From: Euborellia annulipes
Taxonomy: Eukaryota; Arthropoda; Insecta; Dermaptera; Anisolabididae
Length of the DNA stretch: 64,000 nucleotides
Assembly (NCBI GenBank): GCA_023213315.1
Contig: JAKCPI010000488.1
Coordinates: forward strand, 23,941 to 87,940
Reading direction: 5' to 3'
A model generated the notes under the pieces. The model saw only the letters and a program-made list of their open reading frames with translations, was not told the origin of the DNA and did not search any database. The position numbers were made by a program, and so were the translations under genes. Positions 10,122-57,728 of this stretch are shown here, piece after piece (the stretch's first letter is position 1; each line of letters begins with the position of its first letter).

Positions 10122-10165
10122 CACTTGATACGTATTTCGACAATTTCTTGTCATCATCAGAAGTG
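10122..10165 (-). ncRNA. hammerhead ribozyme motif, type I-like
   Basis: On the reverse strand: stem I CACTT, core CTGATGA, one extra base, stem II GACAA..TTGTC, GAAA, then TACGTATC and AAGTG closing stem I. Predicted cleavage is after GTATC. Inverse twin of 10190-10233, differing by one loop base. Confidence 0.8.
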
Positions 10166-10189
10166 ATTACATTCTAATACTAATCTAAT

Positions 10190-10233
10190 CACTTCTGATG
10201 ATGACAAGGAATTGTCGAAATACGTATCAAGTG
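10190..10233 (+). ncRNA. hammerhead ribozyme motif, type I-like
   Basis: CACTT-CTGATGA-T-GACAA(GGAA)TTGTC-GAAA-TACGTATC-AAGTG. Stem I CACTT/AAGTG and stem II GACAA/TTGTC pair perfectly. Counting the last A of GAAA, stem III is the palindrome AUACGUAU with no loop, so it should form between two RNA copies. Predicted cleavage lies between 10228 and 10229. The extra base after CUGANGA is found in all copies in the window. Confidence 0.82.
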
Positions 10234-10642
10234 TTAATTTTTTAATTAATAAAAACTTTGAAACAAATAACCTAGTGTTTAATTTGTATATTTAATTTTA
10301 ATTTACAAAATGTTTCAACGAGAACCAACGGTCGAAAGTTTAAACCTTATTACAACGTCTTTTGCTTGACTTCAAACTATTTTTACTTTCTCTTACCTAT
10401 ATTGAAATACCTATATATTGTTTTTTTTTTTTTTTTTACTCGTACTTTATTCTCATTAACAAATATGTTCATACATTTTCATAGTAACAATATCGTACAG
10501 GTGTGACATATAGTGGTCGACATATATTTAGTTTCCGACGATATATTAGAATTCAATATGTAAAATTTATAAATATGGGAAAATATTTATATTTTGGCAA
10601 CCATTTTTCTTATGAAGTACAAGAGTAAAGTGTGCTTCAAAG

Positions 10643-10885
10643 GTTTTTTTCCCATTCACACTTCATATTCACACTCACATTCACAGTCTTTTCGGCAACT
10701 CAGGCCTTATAAGACTTTGACGATAATCGTTATTGAATATATCAATCGGAGGTCGAGGCATTCTTATTTAAGCCATTTGGTATCCAAATTGCTTAAATAA
10801 AATCATCGGACTGCCTGGGTGGGATCCGAACCCCCGACCCTTGGTATACAAGGCAGTCGCGCTACCAGCTACACCAAGCCCGGGG
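10643..10885 (-). mobile_element. SINE1, reverse strand
   Basis: Inverse SINE1 from CCCATTCACACTTC (tail side) to GCTACACCAAGCCCGGGG (head). Flanked by GCTTCAAA at 10634-10641 and 10886-10893. Confidence 0.85.
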
Positions 10886-10938
10886 GCTTCAAAAGATTTC
10901 AAAAAGAGGATATACATTTTAAAGAGCATTTAAAAAAT

Positions 10939-10972
<34 letters not shown>

Positions 10973-11202
10973 ATTCACACTTTTTTCTCATTCACACTCA
11001 CACTCACACACACATTCACACTGTCTTTTCGGCAGCTCAGGCCATTTAAGACTTTGACGATAACCGTTATTTATGAATTTATTTATATTAGGGTCCAGGC
11101 ATTTTTATTTAAGCCATCTGGTATCCAGATGGCTTAAATAAAATCATCGGACTGCCTGGGGTCCGAACCCGCGACGTTTGGTATATGAGGTTAGCACGCT
11201 AA

Positions 11203-11862
11203 GGCTGGTTACACACACACCGATTTTGGACGGCCGGTATAAAATCGGCCGATATTTTATCGGTAGCAGGTGCTTGCACACTCACCGGATTTTTACCGGT
11301 CAAACAATCAGTTGCCACGAGGTGACACGAGGTTTTTTTTTTTTTTTAAACATCACACTTTTTTTCCCATTCACACTCACACTCACACTCACACAGTATT
11401 TTCGACAACTCAGGCCATTTAAGACTTTAGACTATAACCGTTGTAATTAATATAAATATTGTGGGGTCAGGCATTTCTATTTAAGCCTTCTGGTATCCAA
11501 ATGGCTTAAATAAAATCATCGGACTGCCTGGGTCCGAACCCGCTAAATCAGCCATTGCAATTAGCACGCACTATCAAAACTAAGTTAAAACGTGGTAACT
11601 ACAATTTCACTGAGCAGTCGAGACTGGAATGGTCGGTGAAAAATCGGTGTGTGTGCAAGCGGGTATTTAGTCATGTACGCCACTAATTCCCGGCACTGCC
11701 GGCGATACAGTGGCAGTGGCCGGCTGCTGACCGGTATTTTTACCGGCGACGATCACCGGTCGGCGTGTGTGCAACGTCCCGTTCCCACATGTGGTTCACT
11801 ATTGGAATTTGGACGACCGGCATAAAATCGGCCGTCCAAAATCGGTGTGTGTGCAACCAGCC
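11203..11862. mobile_element. PIF/Harbinger-like MITE in SINE head
   Basis: Inverted termini GGCTGGTTRCACACACACCG (one mismatch), then ATTTTGGACGGCCG. The 3 bp duplication TAA at 11200-11202 and 11863-11865 fits PIF/Harbinger. No transposase. A SINE1 sits inside. Confidence 0.82.
11331..11541 (-). mobile_element. SINE1 inside the Harbinger-like MITE
   Basis: Poly(T) at 11333-11346, then the inverse SINE1 body to CTGGGTCCGAACCCGC (box B). The outermost head is missing. Confidence 0.8.
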
Positions 11863-12138
11863 TAACCTCTACACCACGCCCCGTGGGCCTAACTTAAATA
11901 TGAAATTTCAACCTCCTAGCTCTTTCCGTTCTTGAGATATTTTGTTCACAGACACACAGACAGACACACACACAGACAGACAGACAGACCATGTCGCGAA
12001 AACCACTTTTTTTGGATTCAGGGGACCTCAAAACGTGAAGATCCATCAAAATCTCGACATCGAATTTTTGACATGAATCCAATACTTTCTCTCTCTATAT
12101 ATATTACATATATACATAGGTAAGAAGAAAGTAAAAAA

Positions 12139-13085
12139 AAAAATCTGGTGTGACTGTCGCACAGCACACAACTTTCTCTTACCTTCGGTAATCGAAAGTT
12201 GTGTACTGTGCTTGTCACACCAGATTTTTTGTGTCGACATGTATTTAAGTTCCCGGCAGTAGGGAATATTTGAATTCAAGATGTAAAATTTATAAGTATG
12301 GGAAAATATTTATATTTTGTTACCATGGCAACCAAGGGCGGATACAAGGGGGGGTAAAGGGGGTAATTACCCCCCCCAGATTCCGAAAAAAAATACCTTT
12401 TTTTCGCAAAAAAATTTATTTTTAATGTAAAATTTTTAAAATTAATACTTAAAAATTTGATGTGTATTTATATTCTAGCAAACGAGTACAGAATGCGCTT
12501 TTAAATTACCGAAATTAAAAAAAAATAGTGTGCTGTGCGACGAGTCACACCAGATTACCCCCCCGAGAAACACCTCTGGATCCGCCCTTGATGGCAACCA
12601 TTTCTCCTATCTTTCCTATGAAGCACAAGAGTAAAGTGGTGCTTCAGACAAATTTTAAGGGCAAAACGAGAATATACAGGTTGAAAGAGCATCTAAAAAA
12701 TAATTGATTTTTGAATTTTAATCAAAATCGTTAGAGCGAATTTTGAGAAAATCGAAAAAAACTGAAAAAGTACATCAGTAAAGTACTAGTACTCTTTGGC
12801 CGATTTTGTTTAAAAGCTTATATTTCCGGTCCCAGGGGGGTGCTTAACTTATATATAAAATTTCAGCCTCCTAGCTCAATTCCGTTCATGAGATATTTTG
12901 TTCACAGACACACTGACACACAGCACACACACAGACAGACCATGTCGCGAAAACCACTTTTTTGGATTCAGGGGACCTCAAAACGTGAAGATCCATCAAA
13001 ATCTCGACATCGAATTTTTGACATGAATCCAATACTTTCTCTCTATATATATATTACATATATACATAGGTAAGAGAAAGTAAAA
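12139..13085 (+). mobile_element. family A, split by hAT MITE
   Basis: Full-length family A directly following the previous copy head-to-tail. The hairpin is at 12141-12236, and the body is split inside CATGGCAACC by the MITE at 12333-12590. Confidence 0.88.
12333..12590. mobile_element. hAT MITE carrying half a family A hairpin
   Basis: Termini CAAGGGCGGATACAAGG and (inverse) CAAGGGCGGATCCAGAGG. Exact 8 bp duplication ATGGCAAC at 12325-12332 and 12591-12598. The interior near 12528-12556 (GTGTGCTGTGCGACGAGTCA then CACCAGATT) matches one arm of the family A hairpin. Related copies lie at 18278-18477 and 58795-58960. Confidence 0.9.
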
Positions 13086-13812
13086 AAAGAGCAAGTAATA
13101 TGTCCTTGTGAGATTGACTAAATTGAAATTTGGAGTTCAAAGAAAAAAATAAAAAAAAAATAAATAAATAGAGCGATGGTATTAGTATAATTAAAATGTC
13201 GTCTTTTATGATTGTTCTTTATATGCAAATCTGATTTGAGGAAGAGAGAGAGAGAGAGAGAGATATTTGCATAAATAAATTAAGTTGCTATGGACAATAA
13301 ACTTTTCTGCTTATTTCTCTCTCTCTCAAAAGCTTCATCTCTCTCTCTCTCGCACACACTCTCTTCAATTACACATTTTCATCAATACTTTTATTCATAT
13401 TAAAATGGATTAAAAAATTATTTCAATTATTCTAGTGATGACATACAAGTCAATTGAGGTTTTTGTATACATGTAATGATTATAAATTCAAAATGAATGA
13501 CTTTTGATTAGAATCTGTTATTAAAAAAAAAAAAAAAAAAATAGTAAAATCACACAACATAATAATTAAATTTTTTAAGGCTGCTCGGACATAAAGAAAG
13601 CTTTAATATGTTATTAATCACTATCACATACGTATAAAATAATTTCTTGAAGCAGATCTGACCAAGGGTTATCGTGAAATTAATTTTTAAAAAATTTTGA
13701 AATTTAAAATTTAGTCTATGGGGAATGTCGACGAAACGAATTATGTAGACTGATAAAGATTAAAAAAAAAACTTCTCTTTTTATCAATTAACTTCAGTAA
13801 AATACGTTAACG
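13086..13812. other. apparently unique, GA/CT tracts
   Basis: (GA)n at ~13241-13262 and CT tracts at ~13317-13352. No reading frame or known element. Confidence 0.5.
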
Positions 13813-14705
13813 TCTTCTATATATATATAATTCGCTTATGTCCGTCTATCTGTCATGCTCTATTTAGGCAACTTCCCGTTGGAATTTTGAAATGAATATT
13901 TTATACGCATGAAGAGGACCTTCTAGGGATTACAGGAAAATTATTTTCATCCTGAAATTCTTATAACTTGTTTAGTTATTAATTTTTAAAGTTACGATTT
14001 CTCCCATAGGAAATGTATAGAGAAATATTTAAGTATTCTTTTCATTTGTGTATTCCATGAATGTAAACAAATCCTCAAGCAGGCACTGGTTTGGAATAGG
14101 TAGTAATTCTTTTCTTTTCATTAGTAAGAAGCAAAGGCGAGGGTCCGCCGCAGGCGGGACCGAGCCAGCTGGCGGGGGTCCAGGGGGCGAAGCCCCCTGT
14201 CTAGATGCAAAGGCGGGCGCCACGGGTTCTCATAATTAAGAAAAGGAAAAGGGGATGTATAGAGAAATATTTATGTATTCTTTTCATTTGTGTATTCCAT
14301 GAATGTAAAGAAATCCTCAAGCAGGCACTGGATTGGAATGGAATAATTATCATTTTCTTTTCATAATTAAGAAGAAAAGGCGCCCTCGGGGCTTGGTGTC
14401 GGGGTTAGCGTGCTAACTAAAGTCGCCCAGGCAATCCGATGATTTTATTTTAAGCCATTTGGATACCAAATAACTTAAATAAGAATGCCTGGACCCCCAA
14501 TATATACATATATTTACACATACGAGTATCGTTAAAAGTCTTAAATGGCCTAAGTTGCCGAAAAGACAGTGTGAATGTGTGTGTAAATGTGAGTGTGAAG
14601 GAGAAAAAAGTGTGTTTTTTTTTTAAAGAAGAAAAGGCGAGGGTCCGCCGCAGACGGGCTCGAGCCAGCTGGAGAGGGGTCCAGGGGGCGAAGTCCCCCG
14701 GCTAG
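13813..14705 (+). mobile_element. Helitron H with two 3' ends
   Basis: Starts TCTATATATATATAATTCGC. A first 3' terminus occurs at 14204: hairpin CAGGGGGCGAAGCCCCCTG then CTAG. A second, tandem copy of the 3' half ends with CAGGGGGCGAAGTCCCCCGG and CTAG at 14702-14705, followed by T. TC...hairpin-CTAG without target duplication is the Helitron signature. There is no Rep/helicase, so it is non-autonomous. Confidence 0.85.
14383..14627 (+). mobile_element. SINE1 inside Helitron, TSD exact
   Basis: 12 bp duplication GAAGAAAAGGCG at 14371-14382 and 14628-14639. Head box A is decayed (GGTGTCGGGGTTAGCGTGC). The tail is T-rich then AAA, which is unusual for this family. Confidence 0.85.
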
Positions 14706-14710
14706 TAATA

Positions 14711-15692
14711 GAGGTAAAGGTGGTAATATGAGCCCTGTAGGTATTATGAGCCCCCAATATATCTCGTCATAGAGTTCACACAATCTAATGGGGATTGATG
14801 GAAACACTGTGTTCCGTTCTTTTTTAGGCCTCTAGAGAGCTTTGGTTCAGTTGTTGATGATAGATGGTGGATAAATCAGGTGTTTGTGTTTTCTTCTACT
14901 AAAAAACTTTGAAAGGTACCTATTTAGCCCTTAATTATGATTATTATTCGATTACATTTACTTTAATAGGCTACGCAATCTAATAGAGTAGGTTTTAAGC
15001 TTTGATTTAATGTAGGTGATAATTAATTTAGACAGTAACAAAGATAAAATATGCTTTGAGGAAATTCAATATGGCTATGTCGGTAATGTGAGCCTCCTTC
15101 TGTGCCTGGTATATGAGCCCCAATTTTTGATGGTCCGTCAATACCGGAGAGTCCGTTTTGGAAATGCCAGTGGGAGTTGATAATCCCGGAGATGAGCATA
15201 CGCCCTGTAAGTTTTGTGAAGGACTTTACTCTGCCAATCATCAAGGAGAACTGTGGATACAGTGCCTGATGTGTGAAATGTGGGCGCACAATGACTGTGC
15301 TGGGACTGAAAAAGATGTTTATATTTGTGACTTTTGCAGATCATAAAATATTTTCTGTTTTCCAACTTATTTACACTAATATAGTTTTGTAATTAACAAA
15401 ATACAATTTTCATAAAGGATATTTGTATTACTAACCTCTTTTTAACACTCTTTTTCATGTATTTACTCTAGGGGCTCATAATACCAGCACAGAAAATTTT
15501 TTCAACAAAACGAACTTTTTTGATTTTTTGTTATTATTTCACTTTCTGTGTATTTAATCGACTGCATACTTTTTAAATATATTCATCAATTGTTATAGTT
15601 GAAGTTCAACACAAATAATTTAGCAAAAATTATTTAAAAAAATTTATTATAACAAAAAAGAAACTAGGGGCTCATAATACCACCTTTACCTC
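14711..15692 (+). mobile_element. pogo-like element, internally deleted
   Basis: Terminal repeats GAGGTAAAGGTGGTA, extending with one mismatch through ATGAGCCC (24 of 25 bp). TA lies on both sides (14709-14710, 15693-15694), as for Tc1/mariner/pogo. The terminal motif ATGAGCCCC recurs internally near 14745, 15085, 15111 and 15472. It retains only the 3' coding end at 15131-15346. It inserted directly beside the Helitron CTAG. Confidence 0.88.
15131..15346 (+). pseudogene. PHD-finger end of pogo-type transposase
   Basis: Open frame from after a stop at ~15128-15130 to TAA at 15344-15346. The first ATG is 15164. It encodes CKFCEGLY, then WIQCLMCEMWAHNDCAG and YICDFC: Cys2 ... Cys2, His-x2-Cys, Cys2, a PHD-type zinc finger. 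This finger ends the transposases of many DDE pogo/Tigger/Jerky-like elements. No DDE core is present in the element, so this is a leftover C-terminus. It may also read as a stand-alone zinc finger if transcribed. Confidence 0.8.
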
Positions 15693-15800
15693 TAATAATA
15701 ATCTTTTAATCATAATGCTCGAAGTCAGAATAAGTTTATTAATAAAACAATAGACAATGACCAATACAAAAATTCACCTCAATTAATTACATTTATTAAT

Positions 15801-15844
15801 TGCAAATATTTCGATGTTAATACAATAACATCATCGTCAGTGCA
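15801..15844 (-). ncRNA. hammerhead-like motif
   Basis: Reverse strand: TGCA-CTGACGA-T-GATGTTA(TTGTA)TTAACATC-GAAA-TATT-TGCA. Stem II is 7 bp. Stem I is TGCA/TGCA and stem III the palindrome AUAU. Inverse twin of 16779-16822. Confidence 0.65.
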
Positions 15845-16060
15845 TTAAATGTTACAGGTGAAAAACAAAAATTCCAAATGTTGACAAAAAATTGTAAAAA
15901 TAAAAAATTTATAAAAAAAGTTGCCATAAAAAAATTATAAAAGAAAAAACGTGTATAATCAAATATGTTTAATTTTGAATTTGAATATTTGATTATACAC
16001 GTTTTTCTTTTTATAATTTTTTTATGGCAACTTTTTATAAATTTTTATTTTTACAATTTT

Positions 16061-16729
16061 ACTTTCTCTTACCTATGTATATATGTAATATATATATAGA
16101 GAGAAAGTATTGGATTCATGTCAAAAATTCGATGTCGAGATTTTGATGGATCTTCACGTTTTGAGGTCCCCTGAATCCAAAAAAGTGGTTTTCGCGACAT
16201 GGTCTGTCTGTGGGGGGGGGGGTGTGTGTGTGTGTGTGTTCAATTTTAAGCATGAAGGAATTGAGCTACGAGGTTGAAATTTTATATTTAAGTTAAACAC
16301 CCCCCGGGACCGGAAAAATAAGCTTTTAATCAAAATCGGCCAAAGAGTACTAGTACTTTACTGATGTACTTTTTCAGTTTTTTTCGATTTTCTCAAAATT
16401 TGCTCCAACGATTTTTTTTTAAATTCAAAAATCAATTATTTTTTAGATGCTCTTTAAAATGTATATTCTCATTTTGCGATTGAAATCTTCTGAAGACCAC
16501 TTTGCTCTTGTATTTCATAGGGAAGATAAGAGAAATGGTTGCCATGGTAACAAAATATAAATATTTTCCCATACTTATAAATTTTACATCTGAATTCATC
16601 ATATGTTCCATACTGTCGGGAACTAAATATATGTTGACACAAAAAATCTGGTGTGACAAGCACAGTACACAACTTTCGATTACCGAAGGTAAGAGAAAGT
16701 TGTGTGCTGTGCGCCAGTCACACCAGATT
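16061..16729 (-). mobile_element. family A inserted in palindrome
   Basis: Complete reverse-strand family A. The intact left arm shows the empty site. Comparing them, the insertion has a possible 6 bp duplication AATTTT (16055-16060 and 16730-16735), though it lies in a T run. Confidence 0.88.
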
Positions 16730-16778
16730 AATTTTTTGTCAACATTTGGAATTTTTGTTTTTCACCTGTAACATTTAA

Positions 16779-16822
16779 TGCACTGACGATGATGTTATTG
16801 TATTAACATCGAAATATTTGCA
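16779..16822 (+). ncRNA. hammerhead-like motif
   Basis: TGCA-CTGACGA-T-GATGTTA..TTAACATC-GAAA-TATT-TGCA. Same pairing as 15801-15844. Predicted cleavage is after TATT. Confidence 0.65.
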
Positions 16823-16888
16823 ATTAATAAATGTAATTAATTGAGGTGAATTTTTGTATTGGCCATTGTCTATTGTTTTATTAATAAT

Positions 16889-17497
16889 CTAATTACGAAG
16901 CCAATTTGGAGAAGTATTTACTTGAATCAGAATAAGTTTTTCAATTGTAAATATTATAATGAAAAATATATATTTATTTATTAAATATAGCCCTCGGTGC
17001 GAAAGTTGCAATTTTTTTTTTTTTTTTTTAATTTTATACCTAATACCGTCCCTTTGACATAACGTCCCCTCCCCCTGTGTCAATGGAATGAGTAGTGTGA
17101 CTGTCACCTCGATCTTGAAAGGTGTTGTTATAGAGGCTTGCCTTCTCCAAATAGTGAGTTAATCTCTGTGGCTTGTCGAAATACGGCGACTTGCAGATCC
17201 CCTTCCAACAAGTCTTAAGACCCTGTCTATCTGTCTGTCTTTACACCCCCCTCCCCCTTTTGGAGGGTGAATTCTCATTCAGAGAGTTCCAACTACTACC
17301 CTAAATCTGCCTTGCTGTGTTCGTTGAAAAAGAGAGAAAGAAAAAAAAGATGAAAAAGCCAAACTTTATTGGTTCCATCTGGGGTCTTAACACCCCAAAA
17401 TCTTTAGATAAGCTGTACTATGTATTTACACACACACACACACCACAAAAAAACGTATTCAATCGAAATATATTTCTATAGAAGTAATCAAAATATA
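16889..17497. other. apparently unique sequence
   Basis: Less AT-rich than the surroundings at 17040-17320 (ACGTCCCCTCCCCCTG, CTGTCTATCTGTCTGTC). No domain-bearing frame. A short CA repeat at ~17430. Confidence 0.4.
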
Positions 17498-19697: not shown

Positions 19698-19737
19698 AGA
19701 AAAAAAAAGTTTCATTTTGTAGCACAGTGTAATCCAC

Positions 19738-21285: not shown

Positions 21286-21327
21286 TGTCGAAGTTTCGGG
21301 GACTAAACGTCACCCATCTTCAGGACC
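21286..21327 (-). ncRNA. hammerhead-like motif, stem III mutated
   Basis: Reverse strand: GGTC-CTGAAGA-T-GGG..CCC-C-GAAA-CTTC-GAC. The core is kept, but stem III reads ACUU instead of palindromic ACGU. Confidence 0.55.
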
Positions 21328-21726: not shown

Positions 21727-21916
21727 TACATATCCTGAGCCACCATCAGAGTTAATGCGCGTCATATTTAGTATATGCACGTTCTTCATAGTATAACGTC
21801 ACATGATGTCACTGAGTGGGGGGGGGGGGGATATCTAGCTCATATTCATTTTAGTCATTATTATTTAAAATTTCAAATTAAGTTATTTAATTATTTATTT
21901 ATATTCATTTTGTTTA

Positions 21917-22123
21917 AGGAAGGATATAAATGCAGGCAGCCAAGAAATAAAAAACCCTCTCGATTCCTTTTGAATGTCCAGACGTTTCGGGCAAAATTTA
22001 TTCGCCCATCCTAGAATAGTTCACTGAGGATGGGCGAATAAATTTTGCCCGAAACGTCTGGACATTCAAAAGGAATCGAGAGGGTTTTTTTATTTCTTGG
22101 CTGCCTGCATTTATATCCTTCCT
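21917..22123. mobile_element. palindrome with one good ribozyme
   Basis: Arms of ~95 bp run from AGGAAGGATATAAATGCAGG to the inverse at 22123. Both contain GGCAGCC. The right arm has a complete hammerhead-like motif. The left one lacks the first three core bases. Confidence 0.82.
22020..22062 (+). ncRNA. hammerhead-like motif
   Basis: TTCA-CTGAGGA-T-GGGC(..)GCCC-GAAA-CGTC-TGGA. Stem I TTCA/TGGA includes one G-U pair. Stem III is the palindrome ACGU. Predicted cleavage is after C22058. Confidence 0.72.
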
Positions 22124-22190
22124 AAATATATTTCCAGCCATTAAACATTATTATTATTCATTTTTACTTTCTCTTACCTATGTATATATA

Positions 22191-22859: not shown

Positions 22860-23575
22860 AAAAATTCGATGTCGAGATTTTGATGGATCTTCACGTTTTG
22901 AGGTCCCCTGAATCCAAAAAAGTGGTTTTCGCGACATGGTCTGTCTGTGTGTGTGTGTGTGTGTGTGTGTCTGTGTGTGTGTCTGTGTGTGTGTCTGTGT
23001 TCAATTTTAAGCATGAAGGAATTGAGCTAGAAGGTTGAAATTTTATATTTAAGTTAAACACCCCCCGGGACCGGAAAAATAAGCTTTTAATCAAAATCGG
23101 CCAAAGAGTACTAGTACTTTACTGATGTACTTTTTCAGTTTTTTTCGATTTTCTCAAAATTTGCTCCAACGATTTTTTTTAAAATTCAAAAATCAATTAT
23201 TTTTTAGATGCTCTTTCAAATGTATATTCTCATTTTGCGATTGAAATCTTCTGAAGACCACTTTACTCTTGTATTTCATAGGGAAGATAGGAGAAATGGT
23301 TGCCATGGTAACAAAATATAAATATTTTCCCATACTTATAAATTTTACATCTGAATTCATATGTTCTGTACTGTCGGAAACTAAATACATGTCGACACAA
23401 AAAATCTGGTGTGACAAGCACAGAACACAATTTTCGATTACCGAAGGTAAGAGAAAGTTGTGTGCTGTGCGCCAGTCACACCAGATTTTGTTTGTTTATT
23501 TTTGACTTTGAATATGGTATTTGAATCGACCTGTACTCTATGGAAGGGGAAAAAGATGTATTGCTTGTAATATAG

Positions 23576-23615
23576 GTCCTGAAGATGGGTGACGTTTAGT
23601 CCCCGAAACGTCGGC
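23576..23615 (+). ncRNA. hammerhead-like motif
   Basis: GTC-CTGAAGA-T-GGG..CCC-C-GAAA-CGTC-GGC. Core intact, stem III palindrome ACGU, stem I short (3 bp with one G-U). Inverse partner of 21286-21327. Confidence 0.62.
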
Positions 23616-25290: not shown

Positions 25291-25294
25291 CAAA

Positions 25295-25423: not shown

Positions 25424-25640
25424 AGACGACCGAAACGCCGGCAAGTAAAAATTAAATAAAATATTTTTTTTATTTAATCTTTTATTTAATTTTTACTTGC
25501 CGGCGTTTTGGTCGTCTGTCAAGACCTTCATCAGAGCCTAACGTCGGAAAGTAAAAATTAAATAAAAGATTTTTTTAAATTAATTTTTACTTGCCAACGT
25601 TTCGGTCGTCTGTCACGACCTTCATCAGAGCCTAACGTCG
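25424..25640. mobile_element. cluster of three ribozyme-arm copies
   Basis: Three related blocks. A plus-strand half (GACAGACGACCGAAACGCCG, 25424-25443). A reverse copy 25497-25538 whose GAAA is changed to CAAAA. A reverse copy 25591-25632 with an intact core. All share ACTTGCC and GAGCCTAACGTCGG flanks. Confidence 0.7.
25591..25632 (-). ncRNA. hammerhead-like motif
   Basis: Reverse strand: GGCT-CTGATGA-A-GGTCG(TGACAGA)CGACC-GAAA-CGTT-GGC. Stem II is a perfect 5 bp. Stem I is short with a G-U pair. Confidence 0.6.
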
Positions 25641-26201
25641 GATAGTAAAAATTAAATAAAAATTTTTTTTATTTAATCTCCTGGCTGCAAAGTGTTAAAT
25701 TAAAAGATCAACGTAAATCAAACAAATACCATCAAGAGAAAAGATATTGGACAATATTGTCCAATTACATGAGATTAAATATAGCTCTACCACCCTGCCA
25801 TCTGTTGGCAAATTTTCTTAATAGTTGTTTTTTTTTTTTTTTTTTTTTGGTAACTTTTTAACGCCATCTCTTGGCAAAAACGCGAACAACATTGTCTCCT
25901 GAAATCATAAACCAAAATTTCTCAAAATCTACTAACAGCTTGTCGTATGCTATAATTTATTTGAAAAAGGACAAGAGAGAGAGAGAGAAAATCCTTTTTA
26001 ATCTGAGCATCTTGTGAATATTAATCCTTTCCTTTAATATCTTAATGACAAAATAATAATCTAAGAGAGATTTGGCAAAATTATTATTATTACGCTTAAT
26101 TAAAAGAAACTTTATACCGAGTTTGTCTCTTCTTTTTTTTTCTCTCTCTAATTAAATAATTAAGTTACAAATTATGATGTAAAACGTTAATTGATAATCA
26201 C

Positions 26202-26978
26202 ATATATCATGTATGAATTTAGTTAAGAGAGGATTTAATTAAAATGAAATAGACAGCAGGCCAACTTGTTATACGTATAAAGTTTAAGTTAAAAGGGGAC
26301 AGAGGGGGGTAACTTCTCTTATTGAAAATTATCATAATAATGAAGCATCTATTTTGCAAAAGAAGAAAGAATAAAGAACGAAGAGGGAACAAGTTCATTT
26401 ATAGACAAATGGAGTTTGAAATTCTATTATTGTAATTTAGTGCAAGCGAAATTAAACTCTCTTTGATAGAGACTGAATATACTTAGTTCCTGCTATTTTT
26501 TGGGAGGGGGGAAATTTCGTTACCCCCCCCCCCCCCTCCTCTCTCTAAGAATTAGAGATTAGATATGAATTTTACTTTCTCTTACCTATGTATATATGTT
26601 AATATATAGAGAGAGAAAGTATTGGATTCATGTCAAAAATTCGATTACGAGATTTTGATGGATATACACGTTTTGAGGTCCCCTAAGTCCAAAAAAAGTG
26701 GTTTTCGCGACATGGTCTGTCTGTCTGTGCGTTTGTTCAATTTAAAGCAAGAAGAAATTGAGCTAGATGGTTAAAATTTTATATTTAAGTTAAACACCTC
26801 CCTAGAACGTTACACGAAGCTTTTAAACAAAATCAGCCAAAGAGTACTAGTACTTTACTGATGTTCTCTTTCAGTTTTTTTCAATTTTTTCAAAATTCGC
26901 TCTAACGATTTTGATTAAAATTCAAAAATCAATTATTTTTTAGATGCTCTTTCAAATGTATATTCTCGTTTTGCCCTC
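26202..26978 (+). repeat. left copy of ~780 bp direct repeat
   Basis: From ATATATCATGTATGAATTTA to ATTCTCGTTTTGCCCTC. About 98% identical to 28255-29037. Contains part of a reverse-strand family A (26573-26978). Directly abuts the LINE 5' end. Confidence 0.92.
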
Positions 26979-28223
26979 CCTTGCTATATTGCCCTGTATT
27001 GCTACAAACAGCTCAATATCGAAGGCAAGAGTGGCGCTGGGACGAATCTTTGAGATCCTGTTGAAAAGTAAATGTACCAACTTGCAAGCAAAGTTTCAAT
27101 TATTTGACTCAGTAGTGGCAACAACCCTCTTATATGGAGTTGAAGTATGGGGTACTAGATATCACGATATGATAGAAAAAGTACAGGTTGAGTTTATCAA
27201 GAGAGTCTTTGGATGGCCACGAGATACGCCGAGTCACTTCGTAAGGGTTGAGACTGGAAGACTACATCTCCGAGTTAGTGTATTCAGAGCTATGCTGCGA
27301 TGGTGGACTAAATTGATCTCCATGGACGATGGGAGGCTCCCTAGAGTCTGCTTTGAACGCTTGAGGGACCTAGACGAAACGAGTGACAACAGAGTTGAAT
27401 GGAACTGGGTCAGTCAACTAAGAGGTCTTTTAAGAGATATCAACTCTGAAGACTTGATTTACGAAACAAGGGCGGAGACGGTATCCCGAAAAATGCCCGA
27501 GCTGGTCTGGGCCTTGCAGAGAAAAATGAGGAGGGAGGATGAGCATCGTGTTAAAAATTCTATGTTCAGTCCATTGTACAAAGATCTCGTCCGAATATAT
27601 GATGAAGTAGAAGACTATTTAATTATGGACGTCAAATATGAAAAAATAAAAATTGTGAGTCAATTAAGAGTTGCGGGGAGAGGAAAAATATCGCTATACT
27701 TCCGGGGTAGCAAATATGTGATAAAAACTGAAGAAATTTGCACTTTATGCAACCTAAAAGCTGAAGAAGACATATACCACATATTATTTGATTGTCCACT
27801 CTACACTCCTTTTAGAAAAGAATATCTTTGTAAATATATAGATCCCAATTATGAAAATAGGTTGGAAGGGCTCCTAAATATAAAGAGTGTTTCTCAGCTA
27901 AATGATGTATATTTTTTTATTGTGAATGCAATAAAAATTAGATCCTTCATTATTAATGAATAATTGAATGTGTACCTGCGGCAAAAAAAAAAAAAAAAAG
28001 AAAGCGAATTATTTGTACCAAATGAAAGGGAATTTATACTTTTATGGTTTGTTTTTACTGTTTTTTGTATATTGAGCAATTTGTTCTTGGTGTTCTTACT
28101 ATTCTGTGTTTTTGTATAAAAAAAGAGAAAAGGAAAAAAAAAAAAATTTTTTTTTTTTCGCTATGTATCAGGAAGATTTAAAATCAATCCCATTGTACAA
28201 AACGAATGTTTTAAACAATAAAA

Positions 28224-30283: not shown

Positions 30284-30326
30284 AAGCTGACTTTTCAGCA
30301 TCTTATCTAGGCCATCTTCAGAGCCA
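30284..30326 (-). ncRNA. degenerate hammerhead-like motif
   Basis: Reverse strand: GGCT-CTGAAGA-T-GGC..GCT-GAAA-AGTC-AGCT. Stem I is 4 bp with a G-U pair. Stem II is short and stem III not palindromic. Probably a decayed copy. Confidence 0.4.
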
Positions 30327-36777: not shown

Positions 36778-36812
36778 ATTAATTTGACGTTTCGAATATC
36801 TTCTTCAGGACT
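36778..36812 (-). ncRNA. degenerate hammerhead-like motif
   Basis: Reverse strand: GTC-CTGAAGA-AGATATTC-GAAA-CGTC-AAAT. Core sequences and stem III are kept, but stem II is almost gone. Confidence 0.4.
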
Positions 36813-42192: not shown

Positions 42193-42469
42193 GTTATGAC
42201 ACACTTAGAGAAACCCTCAGGTCTCCATGTCACAATTTATAACGTTTTGTCCATACCCCCCCCCCTAACGCGTTACGTAATATATGGACGACCCCTAATT
42301 ACAATTTTAATTAGACAAAGACAAAAATGTCGAAATTTTTTTATTAACGCCAAATTTCTAAAATAATCTTTCCAGTATAAATAGAAGAAATTCCATTGTT
42401 GAGTGGTAATTATTAGGATTAGGTAGATGTAGGCAGCCAGCAAGTGATAAAAAAAAACTTTATTTAAAT

Positions 42470-42517
42470 ATCGTTAACGTTTCGGAATCACATCGATCCC
42501 ATCTTCAGGACAACAGT
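42470..42517 (-). ncRNA. hammerhead-like motif
   Basis: Reverse strand: TTGTC-CTGAAGA-T-GGGATC(GATGT)GATTCC-GAAA-CGTT-AACGA. Stem II is 6 bp with one G-U. Stem I is imperfect at its base. Confidence 0.6.
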
Positions 42518-42682
42518 CTTTCAATCTTGGCCAGTGCTGTCGTTCTGGGCCCATTTGCCACAAAATAAAAATACATCTAAGGCAATTCTCATATAGGCCC
42601 CTACATCTAATGATATATGCAAATTTAATCATTTATTTTTGTATGAACCGAAATTGCATCTATCTAAGCAACATTAACAGTT

Positions 42683-42731
42683 TTATCATCCTGAAGATGG
42701 GATCGATGTGATTCCGAAACGTCGACGATAA
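42683..42731 (+). ncRNA. hammerhead ribozyme motif
   Basis: TTATCATC-CTGAAGA-T-GGGATC(GATGT)GATTCC-GAAA-CGTC-GACGATAA. Stem I pairs 7 of 8 positions, stem II is 6 bp, stem III palindrome ACGU. Predicted cleavage is after C42723. Confidence 0.78.
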
Positions 42732-42835
42732 TCAAATAAAGTTTTTTTTATCACTTGCTGGCTGCCTACATCTACCTAATCGTAATAATAATCTTTCCAT
42801 TTCCGTTTATTTTTTCTGTCTATTTTATTGGAAAT

Positions 42836-44853: not shown

Positions 44854-44898
44854 CCCTTCTGATGATGACACATATGGTGTCGAAATACGTATAAAGTG
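44854..44898 (+). ncRNA. hammerhead-like motif
   Basis: CCCTT-CTGATGA-T-GACAC(ATATG)GTGTC-GAAA-TACGTATA-AAGTG. Same family as 10190-10233, but stem II has changed on both sides while still pairing. Stem I has one mismatch. Confidence 0.68.
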
Positions 44899-48184: not shown

Positions 48185-48759
48185 CAGTGGCGTACCGAGG
48201 GGAGGGGGGGGCGAGGGGGGCGGTCCGCCCCAGGCCCCGAACCGGCATAGGCCCTCATATATATATATAAAAAAATTAAATATTTCCCTTTGAGAGGCCC
48301 CGGGGCCCTCAGAACCAAGTAAAAATGGGAAAATTTTGATTAAAAAAACAGAAAATTTAATGAAAATTTCTCTTTAAATAGGCCCCGGGGCCCTCAGGGC
48401 TCAAGTAAAAACGGAAAAATTTAGAAAAACAAAACAAAATTTCTCTTTAAATAGGCCCCGGGGCCCTCAGGGCTCAAGTAAAAACGGAAAAATTTAGAAA
48501 AACAAAACAAAAATTTCTCTTTAAATAGGCCCCGGGGTCTCAGGGCTCAAGTAAAAACGGAAAAATTTAAAAAAAAAAAATTTCTCTTTGAGAGGCCCCG
48601 GGGCCTTGGGGTTCAGGGATATACGGTATTTTAAAAATATTTTTGTGTATGGAGGAGAGGGATTTTTAAAGAGGAGCACCCCCCCAAAAAAAAATTCAAT
48701 GTAAGGCCCCCTTTCTTCTAGTGCCGCCCCAGGCCCCCAACTGCCTCTGTACGCCTCTG
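48185..48759. mobile_element. hAT MITE with tandem repeats
   Basis: Termini CAGTGGCGTACCGAGG and (inverse) CAGAGGCGTACAGAGG. Exact 8 bp duplication CACAGGCT at 48177-48184 and 48760-48767. Inserted in the left arm of the foldback. Confidence 0.94.
48285..48610 (+). repeat. ~75 bp tandem repeats
   Basis: About five units, each GAGGCCCCGGGGCC or AGGCCCCGGGGCC, then CTCAGGGCTCAAGTAAAAAC, an A-rich stretch and ATTTCTCTTTAAATA. Confidence 0.88.
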
Positions 48760-50700: not shown

Positions 50701-50822
50701 ACAAAAAAATTATTATTGCAAAATTCTATAAGTCCCATTATATTTGTAAAAATGCTTCAAAGTCTCTTGACAGATGATTGCAAATTAATCCATGCACTAT
50801 TTATATTTTAGGTTTATAATTC

Positions 50823-51527: not shown

Positions 51528-52533
51528 TTAAAACGAAGATATTATTAAAGTTATTTTATGGTTATATTTAATACTAGTAGCGTAGAAATCAAAATTACAT
51601 TAATAAATTTTAAATAGTATTAATGTTTTAAAATTAAATTCAAAGTGATAACAAAATTTTCTCATCAATTCCTGAATGGAAGTGAACATGGCAACAGTAA
51701 ATCAAAGTTATAATGAAATTGACTTAATATTATTTATTTTGTTGTCTTTTCTAAATCGCACTCATCCTCATCTTCATTATCAGGAATAATATCAAAAAAT
51801 TAAATTTTGACATCTACGAATTCATTTCTCATTTTTCAAAAAAAAAAGTATTTTGGTTTTATTTAAGGTAAACAATATATAATACTATAGGTTAAATAAG
51901 TTTTTATTGGTTGTTAACATCATAAAAAACAACGTGTTATGTACATAAATCATTTTTGCAAAATGTAAATCCTGCATTGAAATATTGTAAAAATAATTTT
52001 ATGCTTTTACATTAAATATAAATTATTTTTAGGACATATTTCATAAAAAATACTATTAATTATAAGCATTTGAAACAGTATTCCGTGCTTAACTCAATTT
52101 TGAATTTTTTGGCCTTTGACACACATTTACAAGTAGTTAAGTACTACTACTCTAGGATTTTTTTCTTTCTCTAAATCCCTCTTATAATTTCCCCGTCCTT
52201 TGTTAATAATTACAAATTGGTGGGTTGTATGGGGGGTGGCAATGAAAAAGACGTGCTGGTGACAGGCGAAGCCTTACTATTACTACTAAAAAGAGACAGC
52301 GATATATGAGCTCTCCTCCTCTCTTCTTTGAGGAAGAAAGATGATGAAAAGAGATCAACTGACGTGACCCTCAACCACATATATACGTATAAGAGAATAG
52401 CGAGGAGGTAGACAGCCCATTCACACTCTAAGGTGTGACAACTAAGAGTAATTAGAAATTACTCAAAGCCTGGCTAACTCTTTAAGAACTAGCTGCACAA
52501 CCCTTTGGTATATATCTCTCCTTTAAATATCCA
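51528..52533. other. mostly unique, one repeat half
   Basis: 51990-52130 is the other half of the TGGACCCTGTTA element. 52140-52520 is less AT-rich (CAACTGACGTGACCCTC, TAGACAGCCCATTCAC), without a convincing frame. Confidence 0.45.
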
Positions 52534-53078
52534 TTTTTACTTTCTCTTACCTATGTATATATGTAATATATATATAGAGAGAAAGTATTAGATTCATGTC
52601 AAAAATATCGATATCGAGATTTTGATGGATATACACGTTTTGAGGTCCCCTGAATCCAAAAAAGTGGTTTTCGCGACATGGTCTGTCTGTCTGTGTGTGT
52701 GCAATTTTAAGCATGAAGGAATTGAGCTATGAGGCTGAAATTTTATATAAAAGTTAAACACCCCCTGGGACCGGAAAAATAAGCTTTTAATCAAAATCGG
52801 CCAAAGAGTACTAGTACTTTACTGATGTACTTTTTTAGTTATTTTCGATTTTCTCAAAATTCGCTTTAAAGATTTTGATTAAAATTCAAATATCAATTAT
52901 TTTTTAGATTCTCTTTAAAATGTATATTCTCATTTTGCCATTGAAATCTTCTGAAGACCACTTTACTCTTGTACTTCATAGGGAGGATAGGAGAAATGGT
53001 TGCCATGGAAACAAAATATAAATATTTTCCCATGTTTATAAATTTTACATCTTGAATTCTAATATATCGGCGAAAGTC
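52534..53078 (-). mobile_element. family A, hairpin lost
   Basis: Reverse copy from the terminal palindrome (52535-52590) to TTGAATTCTAATATATCGGC. Confidence 0.85.
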
Positions 53079-53129
53079 CCCTGAGTCCGAATTGGAGAGG
53101 ATTTAAAGGTGCAAAACAAGGCTGAAGAA

Positions 53130-53587
53130 TCTATATATATATAATTCGCTAATGTCGGTCTATCTGTCTGTCTGTCCGTCTGTCACGCTCTATTTAGGCA
53201 ATTTCCAGTTGAAATTTCGAAACTAAATTTTATATGCTTAAAATGGACCTTCTAGGCATTACAAGGAAATTATTTTTGTTCCGAAATTCCTATAACTTTC
53301 TAAGTAATTAATTCCTAAATTTACTATTTCTTCCATTGGAAATGTATAGAGAAATACTTATGTATTCTTTGCATTTATGAATGTAAACAAATTCTCAAGC
53401 AGGCGCTGGATTGGAATAGTAGTAATAATAATAATAATTTTCTTTTTGTTCTCGGGCTTGGTATAGGAGCTAGCACACTAACCCATACACCAAGTCCAAG
53501 GGCTAATCTTTTCATAATTAAGAAAAGGCGAGGGTCCGGCGCCGGCGGGTCCGAGCCAGCTGGCGGAAGTCGAAGCTCCTTGGCTAT
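53130..53587 (+). mobile_element. Helitron H, 3' end changed to CTAT
   Basis: A|TCTATATATATATAATTCGC start, full body, GAGGGTCCGGCGCCGGCGGG region. Ends GAAGCTCCTTGG then CTAT where other copies have CTAG. A SINE1-like tRNA fragment occurs at ~53455-53512. Confidence 0.78.
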
Positions 53588-54120
53588 ACCGTTTTTTACT
53601 TGTTTAACATAAGAATGTGATTTTTTTTTTCGTAAGTTGGTAACCAGCAGTAGTCCAAGAGCGAGCGGATGGAGAAAAAAAGAGAGAGGACATCTTTTTG
53701 AATTAGAATTCTCTCAAACAGTTTGGTCAAAAAAAAAAAAAAAAAAAAAAAAAAAACGACAGAGAAAAAAAAACGAAAGAGAAAAAAACTAAATGTTTCC
53801 AAAAGACCGGAAAAAAGCTATATAGAAGAAAAAGAAAGAAAGAGAGAGAGAGAGAGATGCTTTCTTCATCTCACTCACTCACACACACACACGCACACAG
53901 AATCAATTTTTATTAAATATATATCGAGGCGATTGTATTGACGGAGAGAGAGAGAGAAGAGAGATGCCGACCTCGGGCAAAAAAAAAAACCTATTTTTTG
54001 TTGGACTCGTGACAGACAGACGATGTGAAGGATGTTAAAAAAAAAAATGCACAAAGAGAATGAATGCCACACCGCTCGTAGTGTGCGTCCATTTCTCCTG
54101 GCGTTTTTTTATGCTCAAAG
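53588..54120. repeat. low-complexity A, GA and CA tracts
   Basis: Poly(A) 53729-53756, (GA)n ~53839-53857 and ~53944-53961, (CA)n ~53877-53900. Regulatory or simply slippage. No gene seen. Confidence 0.55.
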
Positions 54121-54240
54121 AAGATAAAAAAAATATGATGTGACTTAGCGCACAGCAGATTTTTTTGTGTCGAGATATATTTAATTTCCACCGATATATT
54201 AAAATTAAAGATGTAAAATTTATAATTTATTAACATGGAA
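54121..54240 (+). repeat. family A fragment
   Basis: Deleted hairpin (GATGTGACTTAGCGCACAGC then AGATTTTTTTGTGTCGA) and the first body block. Confidence 0.6.
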
Positions 54241-54593
54241 TCCCCGTTTATTAGTGCTTTTCGTCTACAAAGACATTCACCTCAAACCCACCGGCACAGT
54301 GGTCCGAATTGAGAAGAAAGCGGCTAAAATGAAAAAAAAAAATGAACTTTAGAATAACTAGAAAACCCCAAGCCCATTGGATACAGAAATGTTAAGGGCA
54401 TTTGCCCCTAAAAGAATACCTGCTAACGGAGGAGATACAGGCCCCTGAAGTTAGCCTCCAACTTCTGAGCTGAGAGCGTCGTTTATTTTAGTGAATTTCA
54501 ATTCGTGTTTTAAAAGGTTCAACTTCAACCAACTTCCACCAAATTTGCTGGGGCTTTACCTTGATCTAAGTAGTTGAAATTTCATACTTCATC
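54241..54593. other. flank of foldback, unidentified
   Basis: Includes AAACCCACCGGCACAGTGGT and TTGCCCCTAAAAGAATACCT. Possibly the outer part of the foldback, whose right arm lacks a matching region. Confidence 0.4.
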
Positions 54594-55402
54594 TCTTTTG
54601 ATTCATTATTTCTTGAATGCTTAAAATGGCGTTAAATTTCTTTTTCAAAACGTACATAAATTTTTCCTTTTAAGATGCATAAGTAAAAAGTCCCACATTA
54701 TCCCACTCTATCGAAAGCATTTTTAGTTTGGCTATAGTGCATTTCAAAGAGAACTGTAAATATTTTCACCTTGAACTACCTTCTTTAAAAAATTTTCAAT
54801 AAAAACCAACAAAATTCATGGATTGATAAAATTGTTTTTTTAATAAACTTACTTTTTTGTTAAAAAAAATATCTAAATCATTCTTTCATAATAATTTAAT
54901 AAATTTCGCTATAGGTTTTGTCTATCAAGATGTTATTTAGAAGTAAATTGGTCCAGGAATATTATAAAAAGTTATCAAATATTCGATTAGACGATCAGTT
55001 TGCTTTGAACGACTTTCTTGAGCATTCTGATTCATATTGTGGAACTAATCTCTTCTGAATAACATCTTGATAAACAAAACCTATAGCAAAAAATTATAGT
55101 TACTATGAAACCATGATTTAGATATTTTTTTTAACAAAAAAAGTAAGTTTATTAAAAAAACCAATTTTATCAATCCATGAATTTTGTTGGTTTTTATTGA
55201 AAATTTTTTAAAGAAGGTAGTTCAAGGTGAAAATATTTACAGTTCTCTTTGAAATGCACTATAGCCAAACTAAAAAAGCTTTCGATAGAGTGGGATAATG
55301 TGGGACTTTTTACTTATGCATCTTAAAAGGGAAAATTTATGTACGTTTTGAAAAAGAAATTTAACGCCATTTTAAGCATTCAAGAAATAATGAATCAAAA
55401 GA
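54594..55402. mobile_element. foldback element, arms ~350 bp
   Basis: TCTTTTGATTCATTATTTCT at the left and its inverse at the right. Arms match across AAGTCCCACATTATCCCACT and AGTTTATT..AACAAAAAAGTAAG to AGGTTTTGTCTATCAAGATG. Spacer ~54950-55060. Confidence 0.85.
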
Positions 55403-55900
55403 CAGGACGGGATATCACAGCAACGTCCTCTCCTCGTAGAGTGTTTCCCTGGGGGCTATTGTGTTCAGATATCAATGATTCAATATATTCTATTTATTTC
55501 ACTTCAACCTTTTTCAATATATGGATTAATTGATCAAACGGTATCAAAGAGGTATAAATATAATTTTTTTTTTATTTCAATTTAGGCTATTGGATAAAAT
55601 CTCGGATTATCTATATTTTAACGTTATAGTATATTCATATAAAACCGTTTAATGTCAACAGGTAATTTTTACCTATAAAATATAAAATTCATTTGAACTA
55701 ATAGCCCGGAGAAAGATACCAAATAGAGTTTACAAATACCTTGTTAAAATCTCTTATAGTTAATGATACTTAGATCCTGAAGGGAAAAAGATGGTGGTGT
55801 TGTGGTTTTCCATAACCTCTCTGACTGTTGAATGATCATCGATTTTTTTCACTCCAGGATTTTATTCTTTGAAATTACTACCGAGATCACCGTTTCTATT
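55403..55900. other. no gene seen
   Basis: AT-rich with a moderately balanced stretch at 55410-55500. Nothing recognised. Confidence 0.4.
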
Positions 55901-56338
55901 TGCCCAAAGTGTTTTCGTACACGAAGAAACCTCATCGGAATCTGAGCGTAGCCATCTACCGGCACCTGTCTCTTCTGTAGGTACTACCATGGTCAATGTT
56001 ATGCCGAATTAAAATCAATTATCCCACCCAATGCAACATATACACGAAACACAAGAGTGGCATCGTCCCAGCATCCCTATGCTGTTCAGATCACGACCAA
56101 CAGAACTATCCAATCTTCCTTTGTCCCGTAATTGGAACAAGCTCCCTGCGTCTATCTTCCCCAAAACCTACAATCTTCAGAACTTTCAAGTCTAACCTCA
56201 ACAGGCATCTTCTCAGTTCCCGCAGTTGAGTTTCCCCTTTATGCTTCTCCTTTTGTTTTTATTTTCTTCCTGGCTGCATGTGACTATTGGTCATTATAGG
56301 TCTTCGGACCTTATGCACCCATTCCCAAAAAAAAAAAA
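55900..56338 (+). pseudogene. LINE 3' end relic with poly(A)
   Basis: Three alternating frames encode conserved LINE (CR1/L2-like) end motifs: YYHGQCYAEL, IIPPNATYTRNTR, SSQHPYAVQI, then LWNKLP-like and FPKTYNLQ and FKSNLNRHLLS. At least two frameshifts and an internal stop. Ends in a 14 nt poly(A) at 56328. Different lineage from the 27 kb LINE. Confidence 0.72.
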
Positions 56339-56339
56339 A

Positions 56340-56871
56340 ACCCATGGAGCTATATTATTTCCTATCTCTAGCCCATTTCCAACTAAAGAACTAATCCTTA
56401 TTTCTAGTTCCTTTTATGAAGTATCTCCTAGTTTGAGGAGGGACTCTCGCGTAGCATACTTCTTTCGAAGAAGGTATCACTGAGAAGGAAGCTGCTTTAC
56501 GCCCCTTCCACAACTCCCTTTTCTCGTAGAGTCGCTTGGTGACTATTGTGGTAGGATCTAATATTCCTATCCAGGGCGGCAAATGTCCACGATATGACTT
56601 CGAATTACAAATTACAGGCACATTTTTTGCCTATAGGAAACATTTCAGACCCCTCATATTATTTTTATGGTCGTGGTCACTTAAAACGTCTGCTAATTCG
56701 TATTTGCAGCCTAAATAAAAGCTCGTTAATTCGTCAAGAGGGGGAAAGAGAGGGACTAGTTGTTCTCGTTCATTCGTAATATTTTCTCTGAGTCCTTTCT
56801 ACAATTCACTCTTTTTTAATTTTGTACTCCCAATAATACGTACCAAATCGTCGGCCATACGAATTATCTAT
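56340..56871. other. moderately balanced, no gene recognised
   Basis: Frames on both strands stay open for 60-85 codons, without recognisable motifs or splice context. Confidence 0.35.
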
Positions 56872-57098
56872 ATATATATATATATATATATATTAATGAT
56901 AGCGGAGTGTCCATCTGTCTGTCCGCTCAAATAAAATTAATTTGACCTACTTCCCGTTGGAATTTTAAATCGAAATTTTGCAGTTTTATAAAGAACGTTA
57001 TGGAGAGACTGGAAAAATACTCAAGTCCCGAAATTCCTATAACTTTTGGAGTTATTAATTCTTAAAGTTACGATTTCTCCCATAGGAAATGTATAGAA
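56872..57098 (+). mobile_element. Helitron 5' fragment
   Basis: A|TCTATATATATATATATATA then GATAGCGGAGTGTCCATCTG and the body to ATAGGAAATGTATAGA. Confidence 0.7.
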
Positions 57099-57129
57099 TT
57101 GGGTATAGGAGACTTTGCAGCTAAGGAAT

Positions 57130-57425
57130 TAAATAAAAAGCATTGGTGCTGGGTAGGCAGCCAGAATTAGAAATAAAACACAAAATTTTATCTCATTCTG
57201 CTCGTCGACGTTTCGGGTGCTAATCGCCCCCTTCCTAGTAAGTAGCAAATGAAAAGAAGTTTTTAAGAACTTCTAATATTTATGTATATTTTATTTTTCT
57301 AAAATTAAAAATTGTAGACCAGGTCCTGAGGAAGGGGGCGATTGGCACCCGAAACTTCGACGAGCAGAATGAGATAAAAATTTGTGTTTTATTTCTAATC
57401 CTGGCTGCCTACTCAGCACCAATAC
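57130..57425. mobile_element. palindrome with one good ribozyme
   Basis: Arms GCTGGGTAGGCAGCCAG.. and its inverse at 57420. The right arm has a hammerhead-like motif. The left one (57198-57239) ends inside the core (CTAGGA). Confidence 0.8.
57323..57361 (+). ncRNA. hammerhead-like motif, stem III changed
   Basis: GTC-CTGAGGA-AGGGGGC..GCACCC-GAAA-CTTC-GAC. Core complete, stem II supported, stem III ACUU not palindromic. The left-arm relic retains ACGU. Confidence 0.58.
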
Positions 57426-57477
57426 TATACACAGTCTCCAACCAAAGAAAATATTATATAAAAAGGTTTTATTTAAT

Positions 57478-57520
57478 CATTAACGTTTCGGTCGCAAATC
57501 ACGACCTTCCTCAGGACGAT
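57478..57520 (-). ncRNA. hammerhead-like motif, stem I weak
   Basis: Reverse strand: CGTC-CTGAGGA-A-GGTCG(TGATTTG)CGACC-GAAA-CGTT-AATG. Core and stem II intact. Stem I poorly matched. Confidence 0.58.
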
Positions 57521-57673
57521 TAATTGTTAGAATACAAGGTTATCAGTAGAGCCCGTTGAATATAAGAAGCCCTAAGCGAGCAAGTCCCTCACTCTTAATA
57601 CATATAGCCCAAATATATATTATATAATTTACAATGATAATTGAATATAATACTGTTAACCATGTATTCTAAC

Positions 57674-57728
57674 AATTAATCGTCCTGAGGAAGGTCGTGG
57701 TTTGCGACCGAAACGTCGACGGCTAATT
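57674..57728 (+). ncRNA. hammerhead ribozyme motif
   Basis: AATTAATCGTC-CTGAGGA-A-GGTCG(TGGTTTG)CGACC-GAAA-CGTC-GACGGCTAATT. Stem I pairs 10 of 11 positions, stem II 5 of 5, stem III palindrome ACGU. Predicted cleavage is after C57717. Confidence 0.82.

Follow-up and report, generated by a model that had tools for sequence, protein, structure and literature searches.

Minimal type I hammerhead ribozymes have been reported in Penelope-like elements (PLEs) in part of PMC7761336, and the review passages dealing with them (PMC7761336, PMC6466107) describe hammerheads without helix III or tertiary contacts, perhaps acting as dimers. According to PMC3846280, a typical Penelope insertion has an inverted pseudo-long terminal repeat (pLTR) shorter than the direct one, an optional 31-bp tail reaching into the open reading frame (ORF), and a target-site duplication of 8–10 bp. 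Here we describe a stretch of 64,000 nucleotides of the Euborellia annulipes genome (assembly GCA_023213315.1, contig JAKCPI010000488.1, positions 23,941 to 87,940), referred to at its full length as the window, in which at least six hammerhead families are found in PLE-type insertions. With a probability of roughly 87%, we interpret them as minimal type I hammerheads carried in the pLTRs of Penelope-like retroelements that belong to several families and are either truncated or non-autonomous. The putatively self-cutting motif is of an already known kind and does not constitute a new class.

Hammerhead copies in the window

Each CTGANGA in the window was extracted with its flanking sequence. 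All thirteen sites proposed in the initial annotation carry, on one strand or the other, CUGANGA with one further base behind it, then a helix and GAAA, and after these a short stem III and the returning strand of stem I. At all of them the H17 position is a base other than G, and the pairing back to stem I is at least partial. We added a fourteenth copy, at 21323 on the minus strand, which is the inverted partner of the copy at 23576 (CTGANGA at 23579). The copies are as follows, a strict match being one found by the strict descriptor defined below the list.

10122..10165, minus strand: family A, inverted arm; extra U, stem II GACAA/TTGTC, 8-nt palindromic stem III ATACGTAT; strict match
10190..10233, plus strand: family A, direct arm; extra U, predicted cleavage after C10228; strict match
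44856..44896, plus strand: family A'; extra U, stem II GACAC/GTGTC; strict match
15801..15844, minus strand: family B, inverted arm; extra U, stem II GATGTTA/TAACATC; strict match
16779..16822, plus strand: family B, direct arm; extra U; strict match; used for the monomer fold
22019..22063, plus strand: family C; extra U, stem II GGGCGAA/TTTGCCC; strict match
23575..23615, plus strand: family C'; extra U or, as read in the relaxed scan, a mismatched stem II pair instead
21287..21327, minus strand: family C', inverted partner; non-palindromic stem III ACTT; absent from the initial annotation
25593..25631, minus strand: family F; extra A, stem II GGTCGT/ACGACC; strict match
25534, minus strand: decayed hammerhead of family F, the second one in a tandem array; likewise absent from the initial annotation, and outside the count of 14
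42470..42513, minus strand: family D, direct (tail-bearing) arm; extra U, U17, C.A mismatch at the base of stem I
42683..42731, plus strand: family D, inverted arm; extra U, stem II GGGATC/GATTCC
57322..57361, plus strand: family E; extra A, non-palindromic stem III ACTT
57478..57519, minus strand: family E', inverted arm; extra A, U17, C.A mismatch at the base of stem I
57674..57728, plus strand: family E', direct arm; extra A, stem II GGTCG/CGACC; strict match

The strict descriptor allowed G-U pairs and an insert of 0–2 nt after CTGANGA, and required at least 4 bp in stem II, at least 3 bp in stem I and a base other than G at H17. Stem III, running from A15.1 to U16.1, had to form a palindrome (2 bp or more) or else close as a hairpin (3 bp or more). 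This descriptor yielded eight matches in the window, compared with zero in 100 first-order Markov random windows. The observation of at least eight hammerhead-like ribozymes is confirmed. These eight copies have the conserved type I core (CUGANGA...GAAA, A15.1-U16.1 and H17), and all of them use an insert of exactly one base although 0–2 were allowed. A relaxed scan produced 16 matches in the window, 12 being counted copies and four being overlaps or chance hits, compared with 29 matches in total in 20 random windows (mean 1.45). The copies at 57326 plus and 21323 minus are missed by the relaxed scan because their stem III is ACTT. Stem I is weak in several copies, with only 3 bp or with one mismatch. 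CTGANGA as such occurs 42 times on the two strands of the window, against 17.2 expected, nine of the occurrences coming from an unrelated repeat.

Rfam reports no hammerhead family at gathering score in the window, and among the 40 matches obtained at E-values up to 10, all of them under their own gathering scores, there is no hammerhead either. Hence annotation relying on the Rfam hammerhead models misses these copies. The silence of Rfam is what speaks for chance or low-complexity resemblance, an explanation that is refuted for the eight strict copies by the empty random windows. Moreover, a prokaryote genome collection searched with the one-extra-A/T pattern gave 19 matches, none of which had a stem I or stem II of at least 4 bp. 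We consider chance resemblance exceedingly improbable.

Fourteen of the 40 low-scoring Rfam matches, the strongest included, overlap insertion B, C or E or the F array, all described below; we dismissed the matches as hairpins mistaken for microRNA or other RNA models. Candidate hammerheads at 36808, 33921 and 16602 minus were put down to chance or decay, and the look-alikes at 30311–30321 and 43784 minus, decayed as judged by eye, were left out of the count.

Covariation

The initial annotation had noted that stems I and II differ between families and still pair. This holds as covariation between families. The pairing positions of 12 distinct copies were arranged in 30 columns, with the loops and the inside of stem III omitted, and compared with 500 shuffles. 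Pairs are formed in 89.8% of 108 cells (66.7% in shuffles), 27 cells are altered on both sides (10.7 in shuffles), and the covariation score is 0.677 (0.240 in shuffles); none of the 500 shuffles reaches the observed value for any of the three. Two other counts are unexceptional, namely seven pairs with a double change (114/500 shuffles) and 17 further pair types (62/500). When the partner strand is shifted by one to three columns, at most 52.4% of the cells pair. Given the relatedness of the rows, from which the structure itself was taken, these figures are support and not proof.

The A15.1-U16.1 pair, the only stem III pair counted, is present in all 12 rows and, being invariant, is uninformative on covariation. 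The G10.1-C11.1 pair is likewise formed in 12 of the 12 rows provided that the extra base is kept out of the pairing; this supports its reading as an insert. Together, the random-window controls and the covariation support the identification of the copies as hammerheads.

Structure of the insertions

Most copies lie in inverted, head-to-head arms of short insertions, five of which were delimited. The tail borders were set by us from the alignments, and insertions C and E are weakly delimited.

10050..10351, plus strand: insertion A, a near-palindrome; arms 10045–10173 and 10182–10310, 126/129 identical; 47-nt tail 10305–10351
10037..10049 (left) and 10352–10364 (right): target-site duplication of A, 13 bp, ACAACGTCTTTTG
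15738..16926, plus strand: insertion B; arms 230/239 identical after removal of a nested repeat at 16056–16729; 41-nt tail 16886–16926
15725..15737 (left) and 16927–16939 (right): target-site duplication of B, 13 bp, TCAGAATAAGTTT
21912..22154, plus strand: insertion C; arms 21914–22012 and 22027–22126, 98/100 identical; CTAGGA for CTGAGGA in the inverted arm; 31-nt tail 22124–22154, border uncertain by a few nucleotides
21902 and 22155: direct flank repeat of C, 10 bp, TATTCATTTT, weak on its own
42375..42786, minus strand: insertion D; 37-nt tail at the left, 42375–42411, on the minus strand, with an ATG
42362..42374 (left) and 42787–42799 (right): target-site duplication of D, 13 bp, AATAATCTTTCCA
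57141..57457, plus strand: insertion E, perhaps lying within the left arm of E'; arms 57139–57236 and 57329–57426, 92/98 identical; 32-nt tail; 8-bp flank repeat ATAAAAAG, weak

Seven head-to-head pairs were aligned in all, with identities of 77–98%, including 162/165 for B, 90/93 for C' and 80/93 for E'. The lowest identity is that of the D pair (140/182), where the alignment takes in flanking sequence beyond the arms.

The flanking duplications were compared with pairs of 95-nt stretches of the window taken at random, of which 26 out of 2702 share a word of at least 13. The three 13-bp duplications (A, B and D) in eight examined elements are thus improbable by chance. Shorter words are common, with at least 10 in 164 and at least 8 in 834 of the 2702 pairs, and the repeats flanking C and E are counted only because they are located at the expected borders. 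Out of 69 inverted repeats found in the window, with 25 listed, 11 others were considered, and none of these has a flank repeat of at least 13, the best being a 12-bp palindrome.

Near-palindromes with duplications and no coding capacity would also be expected of MITE or foldback-type DNA transposons (MITE, miniature inverted-repeat transposable element), in which the terminal inverted repeats carry the ribozyme as a passenger and mobility is driven by a transposase. Against this, the two ends differ: in all five delimited insertions, the two weakly delimited ones included, one arm extends beyond the other by a tail of 31–47 nt. Inner ends and sizes are also variable, an ORF starts at the long end in family A, and the published PLE anatomy matches. 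We therefore regard a DNA transposon as unlikely.

The initial annotation also named metazoan retrozymes as known carriers of such ribozymes; these are small tandem hammerhead repeats moving as circular RNA. Retrozymes do have type I hammerheads, and the window contains one tandem array of hammerhead units:

25434..25679, minus strand: tandem array of family F; units of about 94 bp, the last part inverted; in each unit an AT-rich inverted repeat with the ribozyme at its tip

Metazoan retrozymes are described in part of PMC7229834 as tandem repeats of 150–450 bp giving RNAs of about 170–400 nt. Direct tandem repeats of this length with a type I hammerhead were not found in the window, the period of the hammerhead array being 94 bp, and the seven pairs are inverted, not tandem, and include single insertions with duplications and tails. 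The retrozyme link is not supported, except loosely for this array, and we consider retrozymes a quite improbable source.

Also absent from the initial annotation are two left arms on the minus strand, near 22012 and 57236, in which CTAGGA stands where CTGAGGA is expected. Systematic inactivation of the inverted copies was considered, as GTTAA replaces GTCGA in the minus copies of both D and E', and CTAGGA is common to those of C and E. No consistent rule emerged, and the idea was dropped because the minus copy of D is the tail-bearing arm.

The motif TGGCTGCCTRC is common to families C, D and E, downstream of the hammerhead and in both arms, with six exact matches (21932 minus, 22098 plus, 42429 minus, 42759 plus, 57153 minus, 57402 plus). 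With at most one mismatch it occurs eight times in the window, against 0.24 expected. It is possibly a conserved pLTR signal.

Coding content

The tail of family A contains an ORF start at ATG 10310, MFQREPTVESLN, and ATGTTTCAACGAGAACCAACGG lies in the extra stretch of its longer arm. Downstream of the A' copy (CTGANGA at 44859) lies a similar ORF start, MFQLEPTVTSLK; all three were translated by eye. An ATG is also present in the D tail, and none in the tails of B, C and E. Four of the five insertions, being shorter than 420 bp, are too short for an ORF encoding reverse transcriptase and endonuclease.

Eleven of the 126 ORFs of at least 70 amino acids were scanned for domains, which produced one weak zf-RVT and one weak RIX1 match below the cut-off. 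The zf-RVT match (E-value 1.5e-4, under the Pfam cut-off) is in a 339-aa ORF at 26944–27960 on the plus strand, which has one protein relative at 36% and is probably the end of a retrotransposon without long terminal repeats (non-LTR). The other ten scanned ORFs have no retroelement domain.

Probable assignment to Penelope-like elements

The initial annotation named Penelope-like elements only as known carriers of such ribozymes. The anatomy agrees with that link: the insertions have terminal repeats with a hammerhead in inverted arms, a tail past one arm, and target-site duplications at three of them. We call the elements non-autonomous or truncated because the insertions are short and no coding region was seen in the 11 of 126 ORFs.

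Several observations weigh against this assignment. Neither PLE reverse transcriptase nor GIY-YIG endonuclease was detected in the ORFs scanned, and no relative was found in another genome, the host genome lying outside the search. The flanks of C', E' and F contain no convincing duplication, and two copies, 57326 plus and 21323 minus, have a broken, non-palindromic stem III. Among seven monomers folded with a thermodynamic model, A, A', D and F do not form hammerheads, while B, C and E' retain stems I and II, C and E' with extra core pairs. The monomer energies of A (z -0.63), A' (z -0.44) and D (z -0.04) are ordinary; those of B (z -1.45), F (z -1.62), E' (z -1.82) and C (z -3.62) are lower. 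Of the seven dimers, that of A speaks in favour: it gives a double hammerhead, its stem III measuring 8 bp, at -20.3 kcal/mol compared with -8.1 kcal/mol for the monomer. It is alone in this; in the A' dimer stem I is missing, and those of B, C, D, E' and F adopt other structures. Finally, in the one PLE studied in vitro (PMC11167929), hammerhead mutants had no effect on insertion and cleavage required the PLE protein.

The extra base after CUGANGA

The initial annotation considered the extra base to be unlike the textbook core. It is real, with one base in all 14 copies, and precedented in known hammerheads, hence within their range. The base is U in ten copies and A in four. Published hammerhead alignments permit 1–2 nt at this position. 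A 2001 study of chrysanthemum chlorotic mottle viroid reportedly found that U or A is tolerated there, U being best, and that C or G is harmful. If so, the occurrence of U or A alone in 14 of 14 copies would fit selection for activity. In the plus hammerhead of this viroid, an unpaired A follows A9, as described in section 4 of PMC3705267.

In viral contigs, the one-base-insert pattern was found in 11, four of which also match the no-insert pattern, and the no-insert pattern in 21. Given 21 contigs against seven with the insert only, the textbook core is commoner there. Among the seven, contig L003 alone has a complete hammerhead (2078–2111, minus strand; stems by eye), with one extra C after CUGAGGA. 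Thus the insert is found outside this genome too. The A-family motif searched in the viral contigs gave no matches.

Proposed mechanism

The transcript of a Penelope-like element would fold into the hammerhead and be cut after H17, the predicted cleavage site, and cleavage would proceed mainly in the dimer, since in most families stem III amounts to just 2 bp. The reverse transcriptase and endonuclease, encoded by a PLE, would be supplied from elsewhere, and target-primed reverse transcription starting inside the ORF would leave the tail. According to the in vitro part of PMC11167929, reverse transcription by a PLE enzyme starts inside the RNA at two sites defining the tail, and both target strands are cut and extended. 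Read-through RNA across the head-to-head arms would fold as a long hairpin burying the ribozyme, and for this reason most copies are probably silent relics; the RNA of insertion A is predicted to form a long hairpin of -171.6 kcal/mol.

The origin of the inverted ends looks unsettled in the literature. They are attributed to self-priming on an antisense template in the relevant passage of PMC3846280, as against cutting and extension of both strands in that of PMC11167929. A tentative and rather doubtful suggestion is that the insertions are footprints of two-strand priming. Each cut strand would prime complementary DNA (cDNA) on a PLE RNA at one of two internal sites, the two cDNAs would both extend to the same 5' end of the RNA and meet head to head, and the inner ends of A and C, within about 20 nt of the ribozyme core, would show where the RNA began, a point fixed at the hammerhead or close to it. 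This would produce near-perfect palindromes with the tail as the main asymmetry. The unequal tail fits two-strand priming better than simple self-priming, as the latter is expected to copy the tail into both arms. The suggestion rests on five insertions, two of them weakly delimited, and the spacing between the arms of D (about 180 nt) and E (about 90 nt) means that in some insertions the inner ends lie apart. The clean insertions, with their duplications and tails, lend themselves well to testing how inverted PLE ends form.

Other repeats in the window

A dispersed repeat CATTTTGCGATTGAAATCT...CTGAAGA is present in nine copies, with CTGAAGA starting at 1317 minus, 2932 minus, 16490 plus, 17725 minus, 23251 plus, 35969 minus, 43081 minus, 52951 plus and 60437 plus. 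Its CTGAAGA was rejected as a hammerhead. One copy is the repeat nested in insertion B (16056–16729); its end has a hairpin, AATCTGGTGTGAC...CACACCAGATT. At 48363–48605 a unit of 73 bp is repeated in tandem 3.4 times; its core, GGCCCCGGGGCCC, is GC-rich, unlike the rest of the window, which is AT-rich.

Comparison with known systems

The closest parallel to the insertion anatomy is provided by Penelope-like elements with inverted pLTRs (Pen2a of Adineta vaga and others) as presented in part of PMC3846280, with head-to-head inverted terminal repeats of unequal lengths, a tail, duplications, and palindromes at the inverted junction, all features shared here. Unlike them, the delimited insertions in the window are only 243–412 bp long (1189 bp for B with its nested repeat), only an ORF start is seen in them, and three of the duplications are 13 bp. 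The ribozymes resemble the PLE and Terminon hammerheads treated in sections of PMC7761336 and PMC7229834 in the type I core, the 2-bp or palindromic stem III and the presumed action as dimers.

The single unpaired base straight after A9 is shared with the plus hammerhead of chrysanthemum chlorotic mottle viroid (section 4 of PMC3705267), where it is A, whereas here both U and A occur. Finally, in Poseidon of Anolis carolinensis, as described in part of PMC11167929, the tail is likewise explained by an internal start of reverse transcription, the hammerhead is close to the ORF start, and both target strands are cut and extended, which is the priming suggested above. In Poseidon, however, the hammerhead overlaps the ORF start, while in family A the ATG lies about 77 nt downstream of its end.

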